Below, piece by piece: positions 5,514 to 61,500 of a stretch of DNA of 64,000 nucleotides (positions are counted from its first letter, which is position 1; the number at the start of each line of letters is the position of its first letter). The DNA is from Branchiostoma floridae (taxonomy: Eukaryota > Chordata > Leptocardii > Amphioxiformes > Branchiostomatidae): positions 14,551,378-14,615,377 of the forward strand of contig NC_049995.1 in assembly GCF_000003815.2 (NCBI RefSeq). The letters are read 5' to 3'. The translations under genes were made by a program, and so were the position numbers. The notes below the pieces were generated by a model. That model did not search any database and was not told where the DNA came from. It was given only the letters and a program-made list of their open reading frames with translations.

Positions 5514-8500
5514 CTATTTGATTTGTCTGTAATGTAATGTGAGGTCCCCTCCACTCTTCCAGATGAAGTGTTTGACAGTACGGAGGTCCATGTTGGGGTC
5601 CAAAACCTGTAAAGAGAGAAAATATAGCATGAAAAATTCATCATCACCAAGGCAGTATTTGAGTGGCAAAAATGTAACTACTAGGTACTAAAATCCAATC
5701 ACTCATTCTCCCACCAATGTCCTCCTCAGTATTATTTCCTTTTCCCTATCTTGACTCTGATCACTCATTCTTCCCAGTTTTGGCCTTTCCTGTTACATTT
5801 TTCCATTCGTTTGGTAATCTAATTACAGGGGTCTAGCCAGCGTCCGTTTTTCCGTCAATTGACGGAAATTTGCTGCGTCTGACGGAAAAATTTTAAAACC
5901 AATCCGTCAACTTTGACGGACAAAAATCCTTGGTCGAAGCTACAGGCGGCTTGGGGACGCCGTCCACGGCTGTAAAAGCCACACACTGTTTGTTTTGCTA
6001 TTGTTATGATTGTTGACAATGTGTGTCGGCGCCCTTTCGCATACGATAATCTCATTATAACCGGTTGTTCAAGGTCTCAGTTCAGTCCTTCTAATTAATT
6101 TTCGCGGTTTTCGCGACGATTGTAATTGGCTGACGGAAAAAAATTTCGAGCTGGCTAAAGCCCTGTCTAATTAGTCCTCTTATATTCTTTTTTTCTCACT
6201 CTATCATCCTGTCCATCTTTCTTCACCCTCTCTTTTCTCTTCTTCAAATCCCTCTATCCTTACCTGATCCTGACACAGTAGCTCTATTTTCTCCTCCGCA
6301 AAGTGAAGAGATGTCTTCTTCCTTCTCCTGTTCAGGTTTCTCCCCTCCTGAAGAGGCTGTGTTCTGGGAAATGTTGTCTGTCTACTCCCAGAACCTTCCA
6401 TCCATCCATCCATCCATTCCTTCATTTATTCATTCATTCCCATCCCTCCCACCTCACCTGGTCCTGACACAGAAGCTCTATTTTCTCCTCAGCCAGTGAA
6501 GAAATATACTTCTCCTTTTCCTGTTTTCATCTTTCTTTATCTCAACACCAATCACTCATTCTATCTTTCTCAACCCCTCTACCTCTCCAACCCTTCTTCT
6601 CCCTACCTGATCCTGACACAGTAGCTCTATTTTCTCCTCTGCCAGTGAAGAGATGTCTTCTTCCTTCTCCTGTTCAGGTTTCTCTCCTCCCGACGATGCT
6701 GTGTTCTGCGAGATGTTGTCTGCTCCAAGAACCTTCTCATAAACATGCTCCATCACCTTCCTCACCTGCAACATGTCGCTGGCTGATAACCGGTCCCTGT
6801 TCAAAGGGAAACGTGTAAGGATCAAACATCCTATTTAGTTTTGAGATTCTGAATGCGTGTCTATAGATTTGCCTTGTTCATTAAGCTACAAGTTGGTCCT
6901 ACTGAGAAGAAAAACAACATACAGTCATACACAGATACACACACTCACAGGCGCACACAAACACATACAGACACAAGGACACAGACACACACAGACAAAG
7001 ATGCACACAGACACACATGATCCTAAATTCAAAAGACAAACACACATTGACACAAAGACACACACACACACACACACACACAAACGTGCACGTGCATACA
7101 GACAGCAGGCCAAAACTGTACTTTGAGATACACTAAAATACCATGTAAGATGTTCTTACTTTCCTGACAGTTTCTACATGTACCTACTTTTTGAGTGTCT
7201 TGGCTCCTGATGTGGAATGAGGCTGTAGGTAGAATGGAATCTTCTGGAACTTGGGCATGTTTTTCTGGTGGAGAAACACAAGATTATTATAAAAGAAAAA
7301 TCTCCTTAACGTAAGCTACACAACATCTTCTAACAAGTCATTAATTTTATTCTTTAATTGCCAGTGAAATGTGGTTTCTTCTATCATTCAAGTAAAACTC
7401 ATCTTACCCAAGGGCTTAAAATAGATCTTTGATTTAAAAGTTACATCATTCTATATTTTCAGGAAAGACCACATTTTTTTATATTAGTAACAGAAGACAT
7501 TGAATTTCACTGGCACAATCTTTAGGTCTTAAAAAGCTAAAGGCAGCTGGAGATCAACTATCATTCCTGAACATCTCACAATGTCCAACCCTTTCAAAAT
7601 GGGGAACAAAGGACGCTAAACCAGAGAGTCCTATATTATTTGAAGCTATCACAGCCAAATCATAATAGCCAAAATTCACTGCTATATCTTTTAAGGAGTT
7701 CCTGAGTTGATAAATTGATAAGTTAGTAGCTTAACTACAGTACTCACCCCTATGACGAGATTGAGAACCCAGGCAGGTAGTTCATAAGTTAATAATATGT
7801 CAATAGGTAGACTACGCACATGTAGTACGGTGTCGTCGATTGCCTATGCGGGTGGTTAGTAAGTTAGTGATCATATCACTAGTGGTATTGTTTACCTACA
7901 TGGTAGTTAGTAAGTTATTAACATGTTAATTGGTCACTACCTTGCATATACAGTCTGGGCTTGAAATATGTAGTGCAAAAAGGAATTTCGAGCCCTTTAC
8001 TATGGTTTCAATAACCAGGGTTGGACAAGTCCACTAGCCCTATTTTCCAGGGCAAGTAGAAGTGCTGATCAGGCAAGTACATGACTGTCCTACCCCACTT
8101 GCCCGATCAAGCAAGTAAGATTTTTCACGCAAGTAAATCTGTTATGTACAGTCAAACCTGCCCGAGCGACCACCTCTTTTCAGCGACCACCTGGCCATTT
8201 TGACCGCTTTTTCACGGTCCCATTTTTTTTTCCCATTGACGTAAGCATTAAGCGACCTTTTCTCAACGACCACCTGGCCAACGCGACTGCGACCGGCCCG
8301 AATTGCAACCTATAACGACCGCATCATTTTCAAGATTGAGGTTTTCATCGATTTTTGATGATAATTAGCGCGATCTTGTGCCGAAATCGGCCAGTTTGCG
8401 TCGGATTTTGGGGATAATTTACAGTTTACAGTGTGCGTGTTGTATTTGACATTAAAGACCTCCCTTCTTTGCGTGCGTGCAGTGTGCTTGCTATTGCCAT

Positions 8501-58500: not shown

Positions 58501-61500
58501 TGATTATTGATATCACTACGTTTATTAGCCGAAGCAATATGGAAAATATGCCAGCTGTTGGCTTGAGCAGATGGACAGTACGTACTAGGCTTACAATTTT
58601 AGTACGAGAAATTTTAGTCATGGAATACAATGACCAATGTCCGGAATACATAAACCCTTTTCCGCCTTTTGAGCTCAAAGAACAAAGTTATCACAGCCAT
58701 TTAACGACACTACTTGAATACACACACTCAACATCAAAATGTGCTTAAATATATTCAATAGTGACCAAAGCTAATTATTTCGTCATAGCATTAAGTATAG
58801 AGATAACTATGTGAGCTTAGGCAGTGGGTTATGGCTTACGTAATCAATGTTGACAAACAAATAAGTGGCACTTCTTGGTACGTCGATGTAGGTTAGACAT
58901 CCAGGTAATAAGATACGCCAAAAATAGTTACTCAAGCAACTGGATATGGTTTTGGAAACGGTCAGACGTTTCGGATAGAATCCACTATCATTCGTCAGTG
59001 ACACTGAAGTGACTTGGAAGAAACAGGTCTTTTATACTCTAACTATGAATGAAGACAATTTCAGTCGTCCAATAGGAAACGTTATAAGACAATTCAAACT
59101 GAAGGCAATTTGGATTCCAAAGGGAACAAAGGTAAGGCAACGTCAAACTGAAGACAATTTGGCTTTCAAATGACACTTCTTGGTATTTCAGGCTATGCAG
59201 AAGGCGTCACCACACATACATCACTCACCAATCATAGAGGCGTACATCACTGACTCCAAGGACATCGACCAGGTCCTACGTGGTGACGTCATTTCCGCTT
59301 CCGTCGGCAACCTTCATCTCAGCGAGCTTCCGGATCCGGCTAAGATCGTGTTCTATCACGAGGAGGATAATGTAAGTGATCATCATCACTTACAATTCCT
59401 CTACGTGTGGCTATGGTAACACCTTGCTTCATCTTAAGTTCATGAACAAATCTTTAGGTGTGTCTTTGTGTTTGTGTGCTATGTGACATATAATTTTGTT
59501 CTGCCTGTAAAATCACAATCACAATTTGCGTGCTTGTTTGTCTTGGTGGTGTGGTCCGCAGTGATTCTAGTGGAAGCTTAATGTGGCTAAGGTAAAAAAA
59601 GAACACACAGCTACTTCAGGTAAATAGTTTTCTCTGCAATACTTAAAGGTGTCTACGGTGTTTTGTAATATCTAATTTTTACATTTTTTGTTGCAGCTCA
59701 TTGGTGACAGGGAATGCGTCTACTGGGATTTCAAGCTCAATGGTGAATATCTTATATAGCATATTTTATAAATTCTATCAGCCTACACCTTAAAAGAAGG
59801 GATCTCTTACATAAGACGGCTATTTCGTGTAACATTTGTAACAAGTGAAGGAATAAAAACAAGCTTTCTAATTATGCTTTATAAAAGCAATTACCTTGGT
59901 CATACATCTACCAGATTAAACTGGACTTGAGAACTATATGATAAATCGAGGATAATTCTTACCGGTATTAGTAGGCACTGCAGCTAAGGTGTCGCTTCTA
60001 ACAATGTGGTCCTAAACGATTCCTTAACAACAGTCTAGAACAGTGCCAATCAGAATTTGCCTGAGGAGGGTGACATACTGTGTTTCTTGATTGTATATAT
60101 AGATCCTGGTTGGGAACAAAGAAACGTGTTATCCAATGACTTTCAACCCTAAAGAATTTGTTTATCTTGACACATGCTTTTAGACGACAAAGGCGGCTGG
60201 TCATCGGAGGGGTGTAACGTGTACTACGCCGCGGACACGCACACGGTTTGCCACTGTAACCATCTCACCAACTTTGCTCTGCTCATGGTAAGTTCAAATA
60301 ATGATACTGATTTCGGTATTCGTCGTATTTGTTTGTTTGTTTGTTTTATTTGGATCTCCATTAATGATACTAAAATCACTAGTGATATTAGCATTATTGA
60401 TATCTATCAGATTCCTAAGAAAATAAGCATCCGCTAGAGAACACACAAGCTTAAATGAAAGACCATCAAATTCAAACCATAAGAACAAGTTTAAACAGTT
60501 AAATCAAAGACCACCCAGAAGACTAATAAAATCCAGGTGTATATGGACAGGTAGCTATCATACACTAGATGCTTGTGCCAAAGGAGAAAAGTTTATAAAG
60601 TGTATTCTGAAAGCTACACAACTAGCCACCAGACACTCTCAGTACGCAACAACAAAGATAAATTATGTCCCTTTGCCTTAAAGTTTATGCCCTTTTATCC
60701 TACCAGCTGATTTCCGTATTGTTTCCAGGATGTGTACGGCTCCACAGCTAAACAGCAACAACAAAGATAACAAACAAAGAGTTTATGCTCTTATCCTGTC
60801 AGCTGATTTCCGTATTGTTTCCAGGACGTGTACGGATCAACAGCTAAACTGAGCGAGGGGAACCAGAAGGCGTTGTCCATCATCTCTCTGATCGGCTGTG
60901 CCGTGTCGTCAGCAGGACTGCTGTTCGCGCTTATAACGTTCCTACTCTTCAGGTATGGCTTAATACGAAATATGTACTACACTTTGGGATAATATCTCTT
61001 ACGAAATATGCTCTGGTCGTAGGGATAACATTTCTGCGCTTATGATCAATTCAGGTACTTGTTAACTTGAGAAAAATGCTTTGATCTCAGGAATAGCATT
61101 TATTCTAAACGATCGTATTAGTCAAGAAGCTAACCTTTACCTAGTATGTTTTAGAAAGTAAATAACTCTTTTTGTCTCGCCTATCTGTCTAAGTATATAG
61201 CCGTGTGACTGTGTCTGTCTGTTTGTGCATCTTTGTGCCTGTCTATATCGGTCTAAGTCTGCTGTTATTGGTCTGTGTGTCTGTCTCTAGAACGGTATAT
61301 ATTTGTTCCCGCAGATAGCAATCGCCGTTTAAGGATCGAAAACTGGCGACTCAAATTGCTTTTGTTGCTTTGTTTTTCCAGAACCCTCCGCCGGGACAAC
61401 CCTACTAAGATCCTCATCAACCTGTGTGTGGCTCTGCTACTGGTGAACTTGACCTTTGTGACCCTGTCTCACCCAGAACAATTCCATGCCGGCTTCATGT

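Follow-up and report, generated by a model that had tools for sequence, protein, structure and literature searches.

Tandem repeats whose units span an exon-intron border, termed mirages, have been described in lancelet Adh3, in the globin genes Gb6 and Gb9 and in PGBD5, with troponin C and retinol dehydrogenase cited as further cases in the passages concerned. The PGBD5 paper (PMC3902484) describes repeats of 60 and 108 bp that cover splice sites, with citations to Adh and troponin C; reverse transcription polymerase chain reaction is said to suggest that lancelet mirages leave splicing undisturbed, and published mirages are reported to differ in length between haplotypes and to change somatically. 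Here we analyze a 64,000-bp stretch of the Branchiostoma floridae genome (the window; assembly GCF_000003815.2, contig NC_049995.1, positions 14,551,378 to 14,615,377 of the forward strand), in which ten splice junctions of two genes, WDR48 and an adhesion G-protein-coupled receptor (GPCR), have copies in the adjacent intron. Like the reported mirages, these copies have units that span the border at a donor or an acceptor, many carry splice signals, and their number and identity vary. Unlike in those reports, ten junctions are affected in two genes of one window, seven of them in one gene, with offsets of ~45 to 344 bp and one array of ~50 units.

The feature is of a known kind, and what is added here is its density and a comparison of its rate with that in intron DNA; among the matches listed in the open-licence literature, we found neither a published counterpart of that comparison nor a genome-wide mirage survey. 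A preliminary description of this DNA had pointed to boundary-spanning mirages in amphioxus Adh, correctly as far as two citing papers report. Other reports come less close. The introns of amphioxus VCBP3 are reported, with data not shown, to hold complete or partial exons resembling the adjacent ones, some with canonical splice sites (PMC2632668), but the passage describes no tandem border repeats, and the passages on huntingtin and opsin genes mention tandem repeats without border duplications.

The two gene models (Table 1) contain 72 internal splice junctions, 34 in WDR48 and 38 in the receptor. For WDR48, residues 1-302 match solved WDR48 chains in the PDB (E about 1e-172), which supports the identity of that part. 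The receptor exons are predicted, having been hand-picked from reading frames and GT-AG borders in the sequence, and the Pfam domains found are LRR, Sushi, GPS and 7tm_2. Exon numbering in the preliminary description agrees with both models, and the ten junctions that it named, seven donors and three acceptors, all prove to have been copied into the adjacent intron. Its statement that the copies differ in age also holds, with 78 of 78 identical columns at WDR48 exon 10, 176 of 178 at receptor exon 7, 73 of 87 at WDR48 exon 11 and 62 of 90 at WDR48 exon 15. The last of these is the weakest and oldest of the ten, although none of 2000 shuffles reached its score. The exon 2 mirage occupies most of WDR48 intron 2, with longer exon parts in some units.

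Table 1. Junction copies and gene models in the window. Positions are counted from the first nucleotide of the window; identical columns refer to gapped alignments of a copy with its junction.
Feature	Position	Strand	Description	Identical columns, exon side; intron side
Mirage, WDR48 exon 2 donor (border 26220)	24614-26263	minus	~37 units of ~45 bp	
Mirage, WDR48 exon 5 donor (border 20879)	20749-20919	minus	54-bp head-to-tail copy, 98% identity across 46 bp; second, decayed copy also present	
Mirage, WDR48 exon 7 donor (border 18405)	18260-18496	minus	Copy 18260-18359, covering 92 of 102 exon positions (13 deleted) plus 21 intron bases	76/92 (13-bp gap); 20/21
Mirage, WDR48 exon 10 acceptor (border 11853)	11817-14742	minus	~50 units of 56-59 bp; unit of 23 intron plus 36 exon bases; array interrupted by a 100-N gap, 12971-13070	36/36; 42/42
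Mirage, WDR48 exon 11 donor (border 11147)	10992-11200	minus	Copy with 84% identity; aligned position no longer GT; apparent internally deleted unit in between	47/54; 26/33
Old mirage, WDR48 exon 15 donor (border 8730)	7766-8759	minus	Master 8673-8759; copy 7766-7852, 69% alike, 907 bp away, GT kept; 7902-7954 similar to the copy	22/33; 40/57
Mirage, WDR48 exon 17 donor (border 6607)	6175-6762	minus	Copy 6175-6421; further partial exon-plus-donor copy around 6455-6526	140/162; 63/94
Mirage, receptor exon 7 acceptor (border 51849)	51234-51968	plus	~3 units of 178 bp with 94-99% identity; 51234-51357 an older copy, chiefly of exon sequence	117/119; 59/59
Mirage, receptor exon 12 donor (border 58045)	57967-58213	plus	Copy 58132-58213, 93% alike; 79 exon bases plus only 3 intron bases (GTA)	73/79; 3/3
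Mirage, receptor exon 16 acceptor (border 60825)	60682-60849	plus	Copy 60682-60753, 89-90% alike, AG kept	22/25; 42/47
WDR48 gene, 18 coding exons	28073 to 5517	minus	Spliced protein alignment with GT-AG borders	
WDR48 exons 1-6	28073-28023, 26366-26220, 24043-23965, 21530-21448, 21008-20879, 20040-19952	minus		
WDR48 exons 7-12	18506-18405, 16321-16097, 15422-15266, 11853-11756, 11254-11147, 10542-10446	minus		
WDR48 exons 13-18	10115-10026, 9495-9378, 8817-8730, 7264-7188, 6796-6607, 5606-5517	minus		
Receptor gene (adhesion GPCR), 20 predicted exons in the window	46347-62886	plus	Phase-consistent GT-AG exons, Pfam	
Receptor exons 1-7	46347-46564, 47225-47296, 47967-48038, 48448-48519, 48814-48885, 49356-49525, 51849-52031	plus		
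Receptor exons 8-14	53030-53218, 55299-55997, 56383-56608, 57476-57623, 57902-58045, 59192-59371, 59697-59742	plus		
Receptor exons 15-20	60184-60287, 60825-60952, 61382-61517, 61983-62115, 62451-62520, 62766-62886	plus		

Duplications fall at junctions far more often than random placement would put them there, when they are counted as events. An annotation-blind ungapped scan over all offsets from 20 to 1500 bp, at a threshold of 21 (four shuffles gave nothing above 15), returned 22 rows: 11 in WDR48, which merge to nine events, four in the receptor and seven outside both genes. The merged rows are those of WDR48 exons 7 and 11, each split by gaps; at exon 11, single scan rows do not cross the border, but the gapped alignment does. 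The seven outside rows, which were left uncounted, comprise two possible background arrays, coding-looking repeats, one row across an N gap and one duplicate of the exon 16 mirage. Nine of the 13 local duplication events inside the genes (nine in WDR48, four in the receptor) straddle a junction, and four are intron-only. In two intron-only events, 8174-8601 and 26381-26924, the paired copies are not in tandem but are separated by 332 and 474 bp of unrelated sequence, and the one at 17125-19787 may be two. Against a null of random unit placement, in which intron-only or single-junction positions are allowed and exon-interior and whole-exon positions are forbidden, only 2.0 straddling events are expected (P 1.1e-5). 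Adding the old exon 15 copy gives 10 of 14 (P 1.9e-6), and WDR48 alone gives six of nine (P 1e-4). A hostile recount that drops receptor exon 12 and adds five further intron-only candidates, with 17125-19787 taken as two events, still leaves eight of 17 at junctions (P 0.00035, or 0.014 with junction placements weighted double). The rate ratio of junction to intron per available position is ~11, and ~4 in the hostile recount. BLAST clustering missed the exon 5 copy and placed seven of 13 gene-body clusters across a junction, with 1.66 expected (P 0.00031); including receptor exon 12 raises this to eight (P 2.8e-5). Per event, the bias toward junctions is supported; a junction hot spot would be a claim drawn from two genes only.

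A junction-centred test identified the same sites. With 80-bp windows, 1500-bp flanks and a threshold at 99% of 690 shuffles, 8 of 34 rows in WDR48 and 4 of 35 in the receptor scored above threshold, 35 of the 38 receptor junctions having been run. Two rows were rejected as mirages: that of the WDR48 exon 7 acceptor matches the exon body only, and that of the receptor exon 7 donor (52052-52071 versus 53267-53286) lies outside the border. The other ten are the ten junctions named earlier. In a second test, nine of the 34 junctions of WDR48 outscored each of 300 shuffles. Two of the nine were excluded: the acceptor of exon 2, where the match is confined to the intron, and that of exon 4, which scored 13.3 and adjoins a long N run.

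The copies share a common anatomy. Their alignments continue collinearly through the exon-intron border, and in ten of ten cases the authentic site is outermost, with copies downstream of donors and upstream of acceptors. None of the ten contains a whole exon with both sites, only an exon part being included, and the splice dinucleotide is retained in nine of the ten aligned copies, the exception being WDR48 exon 11. The inner splice sites look intact, and therefore position must decide site choice, of which exon definition would be the simplest account. That the copies always straddle a splice site, as first described, is true of all ten (of receptor exon 12 by three intron bases), but "always" is too strong given the four intron-only events. 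Their description as tandem likewise applies in part: a head-to-tail arrangement is clear at WDR48 exons 2, 5 and 10 and receptor exons 7 and 16 and likely, judged by reading the spacer letters, at WDR48 exons 11 and 17, but at exon 7 of WDR48 and exon 12 of the receptor the copies are set off by 24 and 83 bp of sequence unlike either flank. For these spaced copies, templated repair would be a better fit than simple slippage, provided that the rest was not lost by later rearrangement. Short, nearby, non-adjacent copies also characterize repair-mediated proximal duplication, in which source and copy lie over 50 bp but under 5 kb apart, a spacing seen here only at WDR48 exon 15 (~0.8 kb) and receptor exon 12 (83 bp). 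In primates, such duplications are reported to have 4 of 824 donors that are partial exon/intron and 278 that are intron (PMC2671141), unlike the present 9 of 13 events spanning a junction; the primate survey, as reported, took in only insertions interrupting transposable elements.

We lean, by a little, toward reading these copies as mirages in a full sense: local junction-spanning duplications that are tolerated via exon definition and whose excess at junctions comes from the edges of allelic homology. A DNA segment spanning a splice junction would be duplicated locally and left in the adjacent intron, and unequal exchange or slippage would later expand some copies to minisatellite arrays. 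Exon definition would select the authentic site, the one nearest to the exon's other end, so that the copies are spliced out, and copies in exon interiors would be removed by selection. Amphioxus haplotypes are reported to differ by 3.2-4.2%; introns would differ strongly, presumably more than exons, which may make exons islands of allelic homology. Repair or exchange tracts could then begin in exons and fail at their edges, where template switching would copy an exon tail and an intron head, the weakest step of the proposal. We favor this homology-edge account of the excess with low confidence, as an unproven one, and it predicts a dependence on allelic divergence. That junctions are genuine hot spots for local duplication, several to ~10 times above the intron background per available position owing to exon homology islands, we regard as unlikely at present.

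Several observations weigh against the mirage reading. The sample is two genes, 13 events and one haplotype, and the unit lengths and identity grades of the null were hand-set from the alignments. Taken alone, the receptor has three of four events at junctions with P 0.049, or 0.17 with doubled detection, and the most hostile recount, in which exon 5 is also moved to the intron side, leaves 7 of 17 (P 0.0023; doubled, 0.048). Local repeats are present in 287 of 636 intron windows (45%) in WDR48 and in 49 of 379 (13%) in the receptor, against 8 of 34 and 4 of 35 junction rows; counted by base, junctions do not stand out, introns being at least as repetitive. A few repeat arrays fill the introns, and for that reason the base-level comparison was not accepted as a way to measure events. 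Random intron DNA duplicated at the junction rate, which the preliminary description had named as the outcome that would undo its proposed bias, would be found by base count but is not found per event. In the exon 10 array, exon columns are 98.9% alike versus 90.5% for intron columns, which a neutral picture does not predict. Finally, in the older exon 17 and exon 11 copies, but not in that of exon 15, the exonic part is more conserved than the intronic part, and therefore purifying selection on the master may favor the detection of junction copies.

This last effect leads to a possible but rather unlikely alternative, in which ordinary local duplication occurs everywhere and junction copies are in excess through filtering alone, those in exon interiors being purged and exon-bearing ones staying recognizable longer. 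The exon 11 and exon 17 halves suggest that such an effect exists, in-frame repeats do occur inside coding-looking exons (40064 to 42725), and no fewer than five of the ten mirages are simple head-to-tail repeats. The same five temper the earlier step from bias to a mechanism other than chance slippage: the bias stands per event, but the mechanism does not follow from repeats of so ordinary a kind. As the null already forbids exon-interior placements, the bias is not explained simply by their purging. When junction placements are weighted double, to allow for copies with exon sequence drifting more slowly, P is 0.0009, and with fourfold weighting 0.026. Young events, graded at least 90% identical and thus those for which drift counts least, fall at junctions in seven of eight cases (P 1.6e-5). 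Exon-centre windows have matches in 5 of 15 WDR48 and 2 of 14 receptor cases, all within mirage-bearing exons, and therefore no separate exon-interior duplication was seen in the two genes.

The intactness of the copied sites could instead suggest that copies are selected for a role in splicing, as decoys, back-up sites or regulators. Besides the dinucleotides retained in nine of ten aligned copies, AG is present in all 49 readable exon 10 units. The GT columns of the exon 2 array, however, are 89% and 84% conserved, no better than the 85% average, and variation in the exon 10 array lies mostly in the branch/pyrimidine stretch, where 25 of the 49 units, including one that is partly N, lack the branch-like CTAA. 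Splicing at a copy donor would introduce a stop for four of the six sites examined, cause a frameshift for one and insert 18 open codons for one; the last two both belong to WDR48 exon 2. We therefore consider a splicing role improbable. Selection to weaken decoy sites was also considered and dropped, AG being intact in every readable exon 10 unit, and an Rfam search gave no match. WDR48 exon 2 terminates in NNLSSK (26220-26237), with codons shared by the repeat unit, and at this point it exceeds the solved WDR48 chain by two residues, perhaps because the border moved into the array.

Intron gain by tandem genomic duplication likewise involves local duplication that raises the number of splice-like sites, which the model requires (reviewed in PMC3443670), and for lancelet globins mirages have reportedly been suggested as a way in which new introns arise. 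In that model, exon DNA is duplicated and an intron is created there, between two copied AGGT sites; the copies here already hold intron as well as exon DNA, with intron sequence beside the authentic site, and therefore the intron probably predated the duplication. That the arrays are traces of intron gain through duplicated exon segments with AGGT-like sites is, in our view, very improbable. Least credible is an assembly artefact in which alleles or reads were falsely joined end to end. One false-looking repeat is present: 60461-61157 and 63304-64000 share 697 bp at 100% identity, the second directly after a 100-N gap, probably as a duplicated contig end, and this second copy carries the exon 16 mirage again. 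The mirage units, in contrast, are short, mostly diverged and spread over ten separate sites with differing periods, and lancelet PGBD5 repeats were reportedly confirmed by new sequence data.

Other repeats in the window include two ~1-kb intron blocks that flank WDR48 exon 7 (16955-19908), have internal ~162-bp repeats and are 78% alike, possibly two insertions of one element. A likely mobile element is dispersed at 5834-6165 and 30771-31089 (91% identical). A five-copy array of ~150-bp units at 34926-35684 has no assigned gene and could mark an unrecognised exon border, and a gene-like stretch at 39950-42910 holds repeats of 21, 24, 30 and 42 bp, rich in alanine, valine, glutamate and proline, in coding-looking open frames.

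Gene predictors may mistake such copies for exons, as has been argued for lancelet PGBD5. If the excess at junctions holds genome-wide, mirages would change from a curiosity of a few lancelet genes to a process of mutation that prefers certain places and whose rate can be measured, linking heterozygosity to where duplications form. They would also offer a natural test of exon definition, with ~50 acceptor units before one exon, and a source of new exon borders and introns. Were junctions true hot spots, many genes would be steadily supplied with extra splice sites, feeding shifts of exon borders and intron change.

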